Shown: piece after piece, positions 20,799 through 58,829 of the stretch
Position numbering within the stretch: the first letter of the stretch is position 1
Layout: each line of letters starts with the position of its first letter
NCBI GenBank assembly: GCA_012520575.1
Contig: JAAYOB010000022.1
Span: 62,001-126,000, forward strand
Length of the DNA stretch: 64,000 nt
Source: Candidatus Stramentimicrobium fermentans
GTDB lineage: Bacteria > Atribacterota > Phoenicimicrobiia > Phoenicimicrobiales > Stramentimicrobiaceae
Reading direction: 5' to 3'
Position numbers and translations under genes: made by a program
Notes under the pieces: generated by a model
The model's database searches: none
The model's input: only the letters and a program-made list of their open reading frames with translations
What the model was told of the DNA's origin: nothing

Positions 20799-21443
20799 TT
20801 AGGTGCCAACTGTCCCAAAATCATCATCTATTTGTTCTATAACTATGTTGGAAAATCCACGGCTTTTTAAAAGATTAATAATCTTCTTGGGTTCTAATTT
20901 TGTTTTTTTTAGCTGAGCAGAGGCATACTTTTTCTCAATCAATTGGTAAGCTAACCCTAATTCATCCTCTTTTTCAAAAAAGGAATCTATTGTCTTATCT
21001 ATAATCTCTTTGTCAATGCCTTTTTTATATAGCTCATTTCTTAATTTAATCTTGCCGACGGGCTTTTTGCTCAACTGATATTCAATCCATTTTAAGGAAA
21101 AATCCCAATCATCGACAAATTTCTTCTCTTTCAGCCAATCAAGAGTTTTTTTGATTATATATAACGGGTACTCTTTATCCAATAATTTCTTTTTTACTTC
21201 CCATTCAGAACGAGCTCTATACGATAAAAACCTTAAAGAATCATTTTTTGCCTCTGTTAAATCATTTTCTTTTTGTATAAGCTCTAAAGTATGCCTGGTA
21301 ATGCTGCTATTAACAGAAAGGCCTAAGTCAGCTACAACATTACAACTGGTTTCTGCAAAGAAATCGTTGTTAATGAATATTTTAACCTTTTTGGGATTAC
21401 CTTGTTTAATATGTAAATCAGTTATTAGATAAATCTGATTCAT
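20799..21443 (-). CDS. recX: RecA modulator RecX
   Basis: Small helical protein that binds along the RecA filament and limits its activity. The repeated three-helix motifs are visible, for example '[19 protein letters not shown]' and '[20 protein letters not shown]'. About 214 aa is usual for a Bacillota-type RecX. The start is uncertain: ATG 21443 and ATG 21455 are both in frame, both overlap the recA 3' end (26 or 38 bases), and neither has a strong ribosome site, which suggests coupling to recA translation. Confidence 0.93.
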
Positions 21444-22473
21444 CAGGTTGTCCATATGCTATGCCAGGTAGTTTTGCCATAGCTAATATTTTCTTTTCAA
21501 TTTCGTCAGCTAATTTGGGATTTTCTACCAAAAATAATTTAGTATTCTCTTTGCCCTGACCTAATTGCTTATCGTTATAAGAAAACCAGGTTCCTGATTT
21601 CTTAATTATTCCGTGCTGATAACCTAAGTTAAGTAAATCTCCTTCTTTAGAAATCCCTTTGCCAAAGATAATATCAAAATCAGCTTCTTGAAATGGTGGT
21701 GCCACTTTATTCTTAACAACTTTTACCTTTACAGTGATTCCAATATTGGCATCATCCTTTTTAATAGTGGCTCTTTTTCTGATATCTAATCTTATCGAAG
21801 AATAGAATTTTAAAGCTCTCCCTCCAGGAGTTGTCTCCGGATTACCAAAAATTATACCAATCTTTTCTCTGATCTGGTTGACGAAAACGGTTGTAGTTCT
21901 GGACTTATTTATAATCGCCGTCAATTTTCTTAATGCCTGGGACATCAAACGTGCCTGTAGTCCCATGGAAGCATCACCCATATCCCCTTCTATTTCCGCC
22001 TTCGGTACCAGAGCTGCTACAGAATCAATTACGATAATATCAACAGCATTACTCCTAACTAGGGATTCGGCAATCTCTAGAGCTTGTTCACCGGTGTCGG
22101 GCTGAGAAATAATAAGCTCATCAATATTTATTCCAATATTTTTAGCATAATTAGGATCAAGGGCATGCTCTGCATCAATAAAAGCAGCTATTCCATTGTT
22201 TTTCTGGGCTTCAGCAATCATATGCAAAGCCAGTGTAGTCTTACCGGAAGATTCGGGTCCAAATATTTCTACAATTCTGCCTCTGGGTACTCCGCCAATT
22301 CCCAAGGCTATATCCAGTGCCAGAGAACCGGTAGAGATGGTATTGCTTCCAGTAAGCTTAGGCCTATCACCGAATTTCATTATAGAACCTTTCCCAAAGC
22401 GATGTTCGATATTTTCCATTGCCATTTTTAATGCTTTTTCTCTTTCAGAAACATCTTTTTTATCATTTTTCAT
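21418..22473 (-). CDS. recA: Recombinase RecA
   Basis: Forms the ATP-dependent filament on single-stranded DNA for strand exchange and SOS signalling. The P-loop 'GPESSGKT' is at residues 72-79. '[20 protein letters not shown]' (Walker B and the following region) and '[20 protein letters not shown]' (DNA-binding loop neighbourhood) are clear. 351 aa, full length. GAGGAG precedes ATG 22473 at a rather long distance (12 bases). I saw no LexA/SOS box of Bacillus or E. coli type in the 100-base upstream gap. Confidence 0.98.
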
Positions 22474-22573: not shown

Positions 22574-23161
22574 CTAAGGTAAAAATGAGAAACTAGATAT
22601 AACATGGTATTTTGGACCTTCTTTGCTCAATTGGCTCTCCATCAGCTCAATTTTTCTAACCTGTTGGGGGATACTTTCAATGGCAATATTATCGATAAAA
22701 TCTTTTAATCGTTTTGGATATCCTATATATTTAATCCTGGCTAAAGTAATATGTGCTGTAAATCTATTCTCTGATCTGTAAAATACTTCTGATTTCATAT
22801 TTTTTTCAATTGAGAAGTATAACCGAGATATTAGGCCGCTTCCTTTTTCAATTCCTGCCCAAATAACTCGAGGTCTGGTAAAATAGGGGAAACTGCCTAT
22901 ATTTTTAGCGAGAGTTATTAAAAAATGTTGGCTTTCAGCAGATACTTTTTGTAACAAAGAAATGGCTTTTTCTATCTGAACATCATTTAAGTCACCCAGA
23001 AATTTCAACGATATATGCAGATTATCTTTTTCCACAAATTTTGCCTTTAGGTCAAAACTATTCCCGAACTGACAAATTTCTTTTTGAATTTTGTTAAGAT
23101 AATCCTTAATCTCACTATCTAAGTTGATAGCGATAAATGTTCTTCTAGTGCTGATAGAAAT
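22574..23161 (-). CDS. thpR: RNA 2',3'-cyclic phosphodiesterase (LigT/ThpR), apparent ATT start
   Basis: 2H-phosphoesterase with both catalytic motifs: HIS in 'NLHISLKFLG' and HIT in 'FTAHITLARI'. A conventional start (GTG 23035) would leave only 153 aa and cut off the first strand. The same frame continues upstream through 42 sense codons and encodes the family N-terminus 'STRRTFIAINL'. It is stopped at once by TAA (23162-23164). No ATG, GTG or TTG lies in the part that precedes this conserved strand; the first codon after the TAA is ATT at 23161, with AGAGGA nine bases upstream. I therefore place the start at ATT 23161, giving 195 aa. A nonsense mutation after ATG 23185 is the alternative. 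Confidence 0.85.
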   Translation of the reverse strand: MSISTRRTFIAINLDSEIKDYLNKIQKEICQFGNSFDLKAKFVEKDNLHISLKFLGDLNDVQIEKAISLLQKVSAESQHFLITLAKNIGSFPYFTRPRVIWAGIEKGSGLISRLYFSIEKNMKSEVFYRSENRFTAHITLARIKYIGYPKRLKDFIDNIAIESIPQQVRKIELMESQLSKEGPKYHVISSFSFLP

Positions 23162-23170
23162 TTATACTTT

Positions 23171-23176
23171 TCCTCT
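23171..23176 (-). promoter_or_regulatory. Ribosome binding site that points to the ATT start of thpR
   Basis: AGAGGA on the leftward strand, nine bases before ATT 23161. The in-frame ATG at 23185 lies upstream of this site and has no Shine-Dalgarno sequence of its own. Confidence 0.6.
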
Positions 23177-23192
23177 ACTTTCCATGGGGAAT

Positions 23193-23756
23193 TTAATTAG
23201 AGCTGTAATTTTTTATTTGCTTTTTATATTCTTCCCTAACCTTATTAAGAAAAACTATGTATAGCTCACTTTGATAATTTTGATAAGTCCATTCCAGTGG
23301 GCAAAAGTTTTTTTTAATAAATCTTAGAGTAATTTCCGCATATATTCCATCTTTTAGATAAATTCTTGCTGGACCATTTTTAGTACTTGCCAGTATGAAT
23401 TTATTCAGAGTCAGATAACCCGGGTCAAAATTTACTTCCCTCTTCCTTACGCTTGAAATGTTAGTAGAAACACTATTGGCAAACCATAAAAATTCCCATT
23501 TATTACTTTCAAGCTTGATCTCAGCAAGTTGGTCCGGAAAAATTAATTTTCTAAAAGAAACCAACTTTTGCTTTAAACCATCGCCCATTTCTTCCCTGTA
23601 GTAACTAGTGTAATCAAAGGGCTGAAAGCCGCTTTCCATATCGATTTCACCAAAAGAAGTCATCAATAAATCTTTTGCCTTAAAAAAAAGTTTATCCTTC
23701 GCACTAATAATACTAAATATTAACTTAACCGGCTTAGGATAAACTATTTTTCCCAT
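23193..23756 (-). CDS. DUF4416 family protein
   Basis: 187-aa soluble protein of unknown function. It matches what I know of the DUF4416 family: 'MGKIVYPKPVKLIFSII' at the start, 'FDYTSYYREEMGDGLKQ', 'PDQLAEIKL', 'VNFDPGYLTLNKFILAS' and 'GIYAEITLRF'. No catalytic motif is obvious to me. It lies 31 bases upstream of thpR and nine bases downstream of the RodZ-like gene, so all three are probably co-transcribed. pgsA and cinA, often found at this place in Bacillota, are absent. Function not assigned. Confidence 0.85.
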   Translation of the reverse strand: MGKIVYPKPVKLIFSIISAKDKLFFKAKDLLMTSFGEIDMESGFQPFDYTSYYREEMGDGLKQKLVSFRKLIFPDQLAEIKLESNKWEFLWFANSVSTNISSVRKREVNFDPGYLTLNKFILASTKNGPARIYLKDGIYAEITLRFIKKNFCPLEWTYQNYQSELYIVFLNKVREEYKKQIKNYSSN

Positions 23757-55804: not shown

Positions 55805-58165
55805 TTACCTAAACGTTTTTATATTAATATTCTGTCCATTACTGGTAATTAAAACTGTCCCATTTAAATCTGTTCTAAAAACTTCCCAGCAATAATCTTT
55901 AAGTCTTTTAACTACACTCGGATGGGGAAGGTTAACATTATTTAAGCCCACCGATATTATCGCTACCTTGGGTTGAACTCTATTTAAAAATAATTCAGAG
56001 CTGGAGGTAATGCTGCCATGGTGGGCGACTTTTAAGACATCACTTTTTAATTGTTCTTGCCAGGATAACAGGTTTATTTCTGCTGATTCTTCTATATCAC
56101 CGGTTAATAAGAAGCTGACATTTTTATATCGTAATTTTAACACAATTGATTGGTTATTAAAATCATTTTCCTGGTAATATGTTGAGGGATTCATGGGGTT
56201 GAGGATTAATATTTCCAATCCCGGCTCTAAAGCAATGAGGTCTCCTGCCTTCACTTTAGAATAGATGATTCCATTATCACTTCTTATTAAAGAAAGGAAT
56301 TGTTGATAAACAGGGTCTTTACTGTCTATGCCGCTGTCCATAACCATGCCGACCTTCATTTCTTTTAGGACAGTAACCAGGCCTTCTAAGTGGTCTAAGT
56401 CGGGATGAGTTAGAACCAAAATATCAATCTGATTAATTCCCAGGCGCCTTAAATAGGGTACCACAGTATGCTTACCTACGTCAAAATCATTAAAAGGTGT
56501 CCCCCCGCCGTCAATCAAAATTTTCTTGTTTAGCGGCGTTTCAATTAAAATTGAATCTCCCTGACCTACATTTATAAAATGGAGTGAGAATAATTGGGAA
56601 AAAGGAAATAGATGAGCGGACAGCATTGCTATTATAACCGCCATTGTACCCCAGAATACAAACTTTCTTTTATTAACATCCAGTTTGGGCCAATTAATGA
56701 GAATATAGGCCATAACTATAAGTAAAAAATAATAAGAGATTGTCTGGTAGATGTGCGGTTGAGCAATATAATGATAGGCATAAGGTAAGGACGAGAAAAA
56801 TTTAGTGAAAGATAGCAGAAGATTAATTAAAATTTCACTTAAATGAGCCGTCAATTGCGCAAAAGAAATAAGAAGGAAAGAGCCTATAATAGAGATTAAA
56901 CCTAAAATGAGGATAATACTGACTAAGGGCACTATTATTAAATTAGCCCAAATGGCTATAAGCGATATTTTGTAAAAATAATAGGCCGATAACGGTGCCA
57001 TTCCTAACCAGGCGGATAAGGAAATAGCCAAGGATTCCGATAAATAATTAGGCAAAAAATCTAACTTCTCCTGTAACAGGGGATAAAGAAGGATAATAAA
57101 AAAAGTGACTGTGAAAGAGAGTAAAAAACCTGCATCAAATAATAAGAGAGGCTGATAAAATAATATTAACAATGCTGCTAAAAAAATACTGCTGTATTGA
57201 TGATAAGGCCGATTAATATATTTAGCAATAAGAAAAGTGATGAACATCAGAGTGGCTCTGCTTACTGAAGGGCGAAAACCGGTGATTGCTGCATATACCA
57301 GTAAAATAATTATTATAATAATATACTTTAATCTCTCGTTTTTTTTAAAAAAAGACCAGAAGTTGAAGATATTAAATAAAAAGATGGCGATAATCCCTAC
57401 ATGCAACCCTGAAATAGCCAGTATGTGCATCACCCCTGCATCTTGGAATATAGGTTCCCACTCCGGGGGCAGTTCACTTCGATCACCGGCGATAATTGCC
57501 TTTATGAAGGCAGCTTGCGGATAATGGTATATTCTATCGATATTTTTAGCAATATTTTCTTTAATATAATTAAGAGCTTTACTTAAAATTAATTGATTAT
57601 TTTTGCCAACAAAATAAATCTGATCAGCATTGAGGCTACCGGTGACAAATATTCTTTGCCTGATTAAATAATCCCTATAATTGAATTCGCCAAAATTCCC
57701 CGGTAAATCCGGTTCACCCAATACCACTTTAGCTTTAATTAAGTCCCCATATTGGAATTGAAAATTAGTTCCATTCTGATAGACCCTTAAAAGTACCTTC
57801 CCTTCTACTTGATAACATTTGTCATTATGCTGGATATTCTGGGCAGCCAACAAAATTTCCTGGCAGCCTCCATCTTGCCGCAGCCTCGCCTCTAATACCG
57901 TTCCCATTAAAAGGCCGGAGTTAGCCCTGAAATAATAAATATGGTTGGAGCCCTGTGGTTTACTCTGATAGGCGGTATTCATCATGCCGAGCAACAAAAA
58001 TATAATAAGCAGATAAACACCGGTAAAATTACAGCCTGCCTTATATGAAAGAATGGCCCATAGACACCACAACAGGCAGAATGAGAATAAAAATTGGAAA
58101 GAAAAATAGCTGAGGTTCTTTTGCAGCAAAATGCCGATAATATAGAATATTAAGACTGAAAGCAA
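55805..58165 (-). CDS. comEC: DNA uptake channel ComEC/Rec2
   Basis: Carries single-stranded DNA across the inner membrane in natural transformation. The 786-aa protein has an N-terminal OB-like DUF4131 part, a competence domain with many membrane segments ('AISGLHVGIIAIFLFNI'), and a C-terminal metallo-beta-lactamase domain with 'NVGQGDSILIE' and 'LTHPDLDHLEGL'. The start is TTG 58165 with only a weak AGG upstream; the frame stays open further upstream but has no better start. Full domain set suggests a working gene. Confidence 0.94.
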   Translation of the reverse strand: MLSVLIFYIIGILLQKNLSYFSFQFLFSFCLLWCLWAILSYKAGCNFTGVYLLIIFLLLGMMNTAYQSKPQGSNHIYYFRANSGLLMGTVLEARLRQDGGCQEILLAAQNIQHNDKCYQVEGKVLLRVYQNGTNFQFQYGDLIKAKVVLGEPDLPGNFGEFNYRDYLIRQRIFVTGSLNADQIYFVGKNNQLILSKALNYIKENIAKNIDRIYHYPQAAFIKAIIAGDRSELPPEWEPIFQDAGVMHILAISGLHVGIIAIFLFNIFNFWSFFKKNERLKYIIIIIILLVYAAITGFRPSVSRATLMFITFLIAKYINRPYHQYSSIFLAALLILFYQPLLLFDAGFLLSFTVTFFIILLYPLLQEKLDFLPNYLSESLAISLSAWLGMAPLSAYYFYKISLIAIWANLIIVPLVSIILILGLISIIGSFLLISFAQLTAHLSEILINLLLSFTKFFSSLPYAYHYIAQPHIYQTISYYFLLIVMAYILINWPKLDVNKRKFVFWGTMAVIIAMLSAHLFPFSQLFSLHFINVGQGDSILIETPLNKKILIDGGGTPFNDFDVGKHTVVPYLRRLGINQIDILVLTHPDLDHLEGLVTVLKEMKVGMVMDSGIDSKDPVYQQFLSLIRSDNGIIYSKVKAGDLIALEPGLEILILNPMNPSTYYQENDFNNQSIVLKLRYKNVSFLLTGDIEESAEINLLSWQEQLKSDVLKVAHHGSITSSSELFLNRVQPKVAIISVGLNNVNLPHPSVVKRLKDYCWEVFRTDLNGTVLITSNGQNINIKTFR

Positions 58166-58199
58166 TGGCGCCTGAGCGTTTGGTAAAGAATTAGTCTTT

Positions 58200-58829
58200 C
58201 TAATGGGTTGTAATCATCTCCTTAATAGCATCAAATCTCTTCTGACCAATACCTGAAACACCTTTTATATCTTCAATTCTGCGAAATATTCCATTGTTCT
58301 TACGGAATTCCAAGATACGTTCAGCCAGTACCGGACCGATTCCGGGCAATGATTCTAATTCACGAGCGGTGGCAGAATTAATATTTATTAAACCGCTGTT
58401 AGCATCGTAATTAAATTCAGGCATTGTTAATCCCTGTTCAGCCATTCCTGATAATTCACCTTTTCTCTCTTCCGGTATAAAAGGAATAATTATTTTTTGC
58501 CCGTCGTGAATAGGAGCAGCAAGATTTACCATATCAAGATGGGCTTTTTCCAGCGCACCTCCGGCCATTTTAACCACATCGATTATACGCTCACCTGATG
58601 ATATCTGATAAACGCCAGGCTGCTTAACCGCACCGGCAATGTGGATGATATAAATTTCTTCTTGAGATGTATCTGCAACATTTTGCTGAATAGACAAATT
58701 TTCCTGATTGGAAGGAAGTATAGTAATCTTATTCTTTTCTTGCAGATAAAATCTGCAACCAAAGATGGTTATTATTACAGTAACAATGAGCAATAAAACT
58801 ATTTTTTCCTGCTTAGAAAAAACGAACAT
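58200..58829 (-). CDS. comEA: Competence DNA receptor ComEA
   Basis: DNA-binding protein that captures DNA outside the inner membrane. N-terminal membrane anchor (about residues 10-27), SLBB domain ('HIAGAVKQPGVYQISSGERI', about 58-120) and C-terminal double helix-hairpin-helix ('ININSATARELESLPGIGPV', 'DIKGVSGIGQKRFDAI'). 209 aa. It lies directly before comEC, the standard pair for transformation. Confidence 0.95.
   Translation of the reverse strand: MFVFSKQEKIVLLLIVTVIITIFGCRFYLQEKNKITILPSNQENLSIQQNVADTSQEEIYIIHIAGAVKQPGVYQISSGERIIDVVKMAGGALEKAHLDMVNLAAPIHDGQKIIIPFIPEERKGELSGMAEQGLTMPEFNYDANSGLININSATARELESLPGIGPVLAERILEFRKNNGIFRRIEDIKGVSGIGQKRFDAIKEMITTH

Follow-up and report, generated by a model that had tools for sequence, protein, structure and literature searches.

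The window analyzed here, 64,000 nucleotides of a 1.58 Mb source genome (50 contigs, 98% complete), carries on its minus strand thpR, encoding an RNA 2',3'-cyclic phosphodiesterase of the LigT family. Downstream of it lies recA (21418..22473, minus; TIGR02012, 547 bits) and upstream a DUF4416 gene (23193..23756, minus; PF14385, 179 bits), which holds the same upstream position in relatives (uncultured 'Candidatus Atribacteria', Atribacterota). When read from an ATT codon, thpR spans 22574..23161 (minus) and encodes 195 amino acids plus a stop. This product scored 129.4 bits against TIGR02258 (cut-off 65.7), placing it in ThpR, with a match that began at residue 7 and covered profile positions 2-179 of 180; it also matched PF02834 (68.6 bits). 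It has two HxS/T motifs, HIS (residue 49) and HIT (residue 137), both invariant in the family alignment.

The thpR frame is open from a TAA at 23162..23164 (minus), and from that stop to the conserved RRTFIAINL it contains no ATG, GTG or TTG, just as an earlier, sequence-only reading of this DNA had stated. Specifically, the minus-strand letters at the start are AGTAGAGGAAAAG TATAA ATT TCT ATC AGC ACT AGA AGA ACA TTT, and the window sequence across the leader is CCATGGAAAGTAGAGGAAAAGTATAAATTTCTATCAGCACTAGAAGAACATTTATCGCTATCAACTTA. Two near-cognate codons are available in frame: an AUU (23159..23161, minus) directly after the TAA, which is the best candidate, and an AUC (23153..23155, minus), which has no Shine-Dalgarno (SD) sequence at a usable distance. 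The SD-like AGAGGA that had been proposed for the AUU is indeed in the leader (23171..23176, minus), but its spacing, which had been called good, is at the long end, with 10 nt from GAGG to the AUU. From the same GAGG it is 6 nt to an AUA (23163..23165, minus) that lies outside the thpR frame. Farther upstream, the frame reads ATG GAA AGT AGA GGA AAA GTA TAA ATT TCT ATC AGC ACT AGA AGA ACA TTT, so that seven codons and their stop (23162..23185, minus) end beside the AUU.

Past the TAA, the next in-frame canonical codon is GTG 23035, which has AAAGG 8 nt ahead of it. That thpR begins there and yields a truncated protein, or that the gene is dying, is scarcely credible: the protein would lose about 36 profile positions, including RRTFIAINL, which is the family's conserved first strand, and the GTG is itself a variable valine/isoleucine codon for which relatives have GTT, GTA or ATC. 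Moreover, nothing interrupts the frame, and the two HxS/T motifs are kept.

The start of thpR in relatives

The family (f1) comprises 10 genomes and the order 24, the order's other family being referred to as f2; thpR codons were numbered from the R of RTFIAI. Six of the 10 f1 thpR genes (L002, L004, L005, L006, L009, and L010) have no canonical start from the upstream stop to the domain, with no AUG, GUG or UUG before the conserved N-terminus in the source genome and five of its nine relatives. An AUC or AUU stands at codon -7 in L003 to L008, the AUU of the source genome being one codon off. This codon opens a block common to the family, AUC/AUU - x - AUU - N/S - D. In the alignment, conservation begins at -7, while the codons before it vary freely and include stops, which in the close relatives are scattered (TAA at -11, TAG at -11, TAA at -8, and TGA at -9). 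Differences at codon -7 were synonymous only among L003, L004, and L006 to L008; L005 also has AUC, though offset by one codon in the aligned table. A check against close relatives had been proposed with the original observation, and it turned up no sense codon that restores an upstream start, only the shared AUC/AUU at -7.

The family was not uniform. Exceptions to AUH (H = U, C or A) at -7 were L009, which has no AUH past its stop and an ATG at +1, L010, and L011, standing for one genus, which has an ATG exactly at -7 and so speaks for -7 as the start position. Three further features speak against an AUH start: an ATG is available upstream, at -11, in L007 and L008, the SD of L006 is weak, and the sole canonical codon of L003 is an ATG at -2, the SD in that genome standing before the AUC at -7. 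The SD was clear in L003, L004, and L005 and weak in L006 to L008; spacings in the genus were AAGGG-6-AUC, GGAG-10-AUC, and GGAG-7-AUC, alongside GAGG-10-AUU in the source genome. Phylum members outside the order have an ATG behind AGGAG. In f2, thpR has a TTG at -4, preceded by GGGAG at a distance of about 14 nt, and one f2 gene (L017), with TTA in place of the TTG, lacks a canonical codon as well.

These comparisons bear on the ATG at 23185, which is in the thpR frame with only the TAA intervening, and which had been put forward as the possible old start, the TAA then being a nonsense mutation or sequencing error. This is very improbable. The site is without an ATG in every relative, and their leaders carry stops of their own at other positions; the leader of the closest relative reads TTTTAGAAAGTAGAG against CCATGGAAAGTAGAG in the source genome, that is, TTAG against ATGG. 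Furthermore, the same lack of a start recurs in four other genes, as described below.

The seven-codon frame could alternatively be translated, with termination at the TAA coupled to reinitiation at the adjoining AUU, a reading encouraged by a short ATG GAG AAA TAA just ahead of the AUC in L004 and L005. As a reading frame, however, it is unconserved and missing from most relatives, L003, L006, and L010 among them. Both leader ATGs lack a clear SD, that of L004 and L005 sitting inside the SD itself. We consider this arrangement quite improbable, and it would still mean an AUU start. Read-through or a +1 frameshift from the leader frame was rejected because the frame relation varies between genomes, the leader being in frame with a stop here, out of frame in L004, L005, and L009, and absent elsewhere.

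Which codon of the source genome corresponds to the relatives' start depended on the alignment. At the protein level, AUU 23161 pairs with their AUC/AUU after a one-codon deletion. In the MAFFT nucleotide alignment, the AUA at 23165 stands opposite the AUC instead, with a one-nucleotide difference in length. A single-nucleotide change, through mutation or assembly slip, might therefore have parted an ancestral AUA start from the gene and left the AUU as a by-product; the 6-nt spacing of the AUA from GAGG is better than that of the AUU, and it lies 22 nt from the conserved AGA, compared with 21 nt for the AUC in relatives. We regard this as unlikely, though it keeps some weight, given that pairing the AUU with the AUC costs just one codon, that only a three-base T run is on offer for a slip, and that thpR is otherwise intact. 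The earlier proposal of AUU 23161 thus stands more firmly for the near-cognate class, which relatives share, than for the exact codon; taking the sequence as given, AUU 23161 is the preferred candidate.

Conserved genes without a canonical start

Bacterial start codons are conventionally AUG, GUG, and UUG, an assumption that gene finders share, and the known conserved exceptions amount to a handful. In a survey of 1.07 Mb of the source genome against 0.92 Mb of its congener G001, about seven of 437 ortholog pairs combined a conserved N-terminus with the lack of a canonical start. These were thpR, infC, nusG (TIGR00922, 209 bits), cvpA (PF02674, 100 bits), comEC (TIGR00361, 321 bits), and two identified by eye only, namely an XerD-like recombinase, which has a TTG start in G001, and a 678-aa ORF on contig C39. 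Inspection of ORFs in the source genome added tatD (TIGR00010, 285 bits), along with a CCA/poly(A)-polymerase-like gene and a small number of further genes.

The positive control, infC (L074 on G000:C14, about 370-918, in the source genome; L042-L051 in relatives), has AUA in all eight f1 genomes read, with the arrangement AAGGAGG-8-AUA (AAGGAGGAATGTGAA AUA AAG TCA); in every f2 genome read, the codon is AUU. For nusG (L104 on G000:C24, 911-1474; relatives L143-L151), an AUH is kept in the SD slot in nine of nine f1 genomes, as AUA in eight and AUU in one, behind GGAG, GGGAGG or AAGGG. No canonical codon is present in six of the nine; in two others the only UUG precedes the SD, and in L150 a UUG start is possible. 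In f2, nusG has ATG. The canonical start of cvpA is missing in eight of 10 f1 genomes, which have AUU, AUC or AUA behind AGGAGG or GGGG, while f2 has ATG, or GTG in one genome. Similarly, tatD lacks a canonical start in seven of eight f1 genomes and has AUA, AUC or AUU mostly 6-8 nt behind an SD; f2 tatD is odd too, L308 being without a canonical codon.

The remaining candidates differed in kind. The comEC gene lies in the window (55808..58213, minus) and has no ATG, GTG or TTG in its first 16 codons; its N-terminus, AAGGAGATGA TTA CAA CCC ATT AGA, is kept in G001, with CC(C/T) ATT. The CCA/poly(A)-polymerase-like gene was rejected as a family-wide AUH gene, as relatives have ATG and only the source genome lacks it. 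There (L103, 945-2279, minus), TTA occupies the place of the relatives' ATG, and an AUA follows two codons on.

We also noted that the f2 leaders of thpR, nusG, and tatD (L012-L022, L152-L163, and L305-L312) share a similar G(G)GAG-TTAATTA or GGAGTGATT stretch. In f2 thpR and nusG, the distance from the G(G)GAG stretch to the apparent start is unusually long, about 13-14 nt.

AUH makes up 9.6% of codons in the source genome and 10.9% of upstream in-frame triplets. At about one in 10 in-frame triplets, an AUH in one genome alone is weak proof, and the weight comes from conservation in relatives. Given these frequencies, its repeated occurrence in the SD slot is unexpected by chance, bearing in mind that the genomes are related and hence non-independent. 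Overall, thpR probably starts at a near-cognate AUH, likeliest AUU 23161, as one of a set of such genes in the family that would include infC, nusG, cvpA, tatD, and others. The characterization of AUU starts as rare therefore does not carry over to this lineage, where infC, nusG, cvpA, and tatD share the feature.

The initiator tRNA and start-codon selection

Initiator tRNA has three conserved G-C pairs in its anticodon stem, of which G29:C41 is one and is nearly universal; variants of the three pairs were reportedly the subject of work by Samhita et al. in 2012 (as cited in PMC10486304). The single initiator tRNA gene found in the source genome lies outside the window (G000:C50, 128792-128868, minus; L263, 8792-8868). 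It is unconventional in that C1:A72 is kept while the three G-C pairs are incomplete, the anticodon stem UCAGG/CCUGA giving A29:U41, G30:C40, and G31:C39. Among the matches listed, A29:U41 was present in 20 of 20 genomes of the order with an initiator tRNA match (eight f1, 12 f2), and G29:C41 (GGG/CCC) was kept in all 19 other Atribacterota genomes with a match and in all those from outside the phylum. The change to A29:U41 is one evolutionary event. No additional initiator tRNA bearing the anticodon UAU or GAU was found among 46 listed tRNAs, for most of which the anticodon was read. The source assembly is without an rRNA operon, and the 16S tail was read in three genomes of the order (G003, G011, and G013), none of which has an altered anti-SD tail (CCUCCUUUCU); the 16S of G003 looks normal at G1338/A1339 and in the 790 loop.

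In published work, G1338 contacts pair 29-41, and discrimination against CUG falls when pair 30-40 is swapped (PMC11497404); G29-C41 and A37 make up a triple, and AUU, AUC, and AUA are discriminated against by IF3 (PMC4611024). On this basis, A29:U41 may be linked to the AUH starts through relaxed P-site selection that tolerates them. The initiator tRNA would place formyl-methionine at the thpR AUU via a third-position mismatch, aided by the AGAGGA; A29:U41 would make such starts tolerable in the order, and IF3 would presumably hold initiation at them down. We infer that the same codon class actually initiates translation of thpR, infC, nusG, cvpA, and tatD. With at least four more conserved genes showing the pattern and a lost tRNA pair, the group may read starts unusually loosely. 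A29:U41 is at best permissive, however, since f2 shares the tRNA yet keeps ATG in nusG and, mostly, in cvpA. We therefore put forward only tentatively, as a possibility, that the order fixed A29:U41, that this loosened the check between initiator and start codon, and that AUA, AUU, and AUC thereby became ordinary heritable starts of a set of conserved genes, the core regulators infC and nusG among them.

Published cases extend beyond infC and pcnB of E. coli, the two bacterial examples named in the sequence-only reading and both cited in PMC1780047 as AUH starts. AUA and AUU starts have been measured for Staphylococcus infC, ccpN, and cvfC1 (PMC13009471), and an AUH start has been proposed for lepA of Borrelia and B. 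licheniformis (PMC1780047). Like thpR, infC of E. coli (AUU) and S. aureus (AUA) has an AUH behind an SD that is conserved among relatives, but infC encodes IF3 and thpR does not, so that IF3 self-regulation is inapplicable. E. coli pcnB, with AUU (Binns and Masters 2002, as cited in PMC1780047 and PMC13009471), is likewise a non-infC gene for an RNA-acting enzyme, though a different gene in a different lineage, and one for which output was measured, whereas thpR is known from sequence. The conserved near-cognate starts of ccpN (AUA) and cvfC1 (AUU) in Staphylococcus/Bacillus (PMC13009471) also lie outside infC; these have strong SDs and involve few genes per genome, in contrast to at least five conserved genes, some with modest SDs, in the Atribacterota family. 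For the tRNA, the G-C pair variants of PMC11497404 similarly alter a pair of the anticodon stem that 16S G1338/A1339 reads; the change in that work, a G30-C40 swap that gave less CUG discrimination, was engineered, whereas A29:U41 is natural, fixed in the order, and seen at the level of sequence. The literature searched held nothing on start codons in Atribacterota, nor thpR, nusG, cvpA or tatD as AUH-start genes; what appears new is the combination, in one family, of five conserved putative AUH genes and an altered initiator tRNA.

If several conserved genes of one lineage do start at AUH, then N-termini are mis-annotated there, and the lineage would be a naturally occurring example of relaxed start-codon selection, overlooked by standard gene finders. 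Were A29:U41 the cause, it would offer a natural system for the roles of the anticodon stem, 16S G1338/A1339, and IF3 in start-codon fidelity. Finally, having nusG and infC on weak, possibly IF3-controlled starts would tie transcription to translation control.
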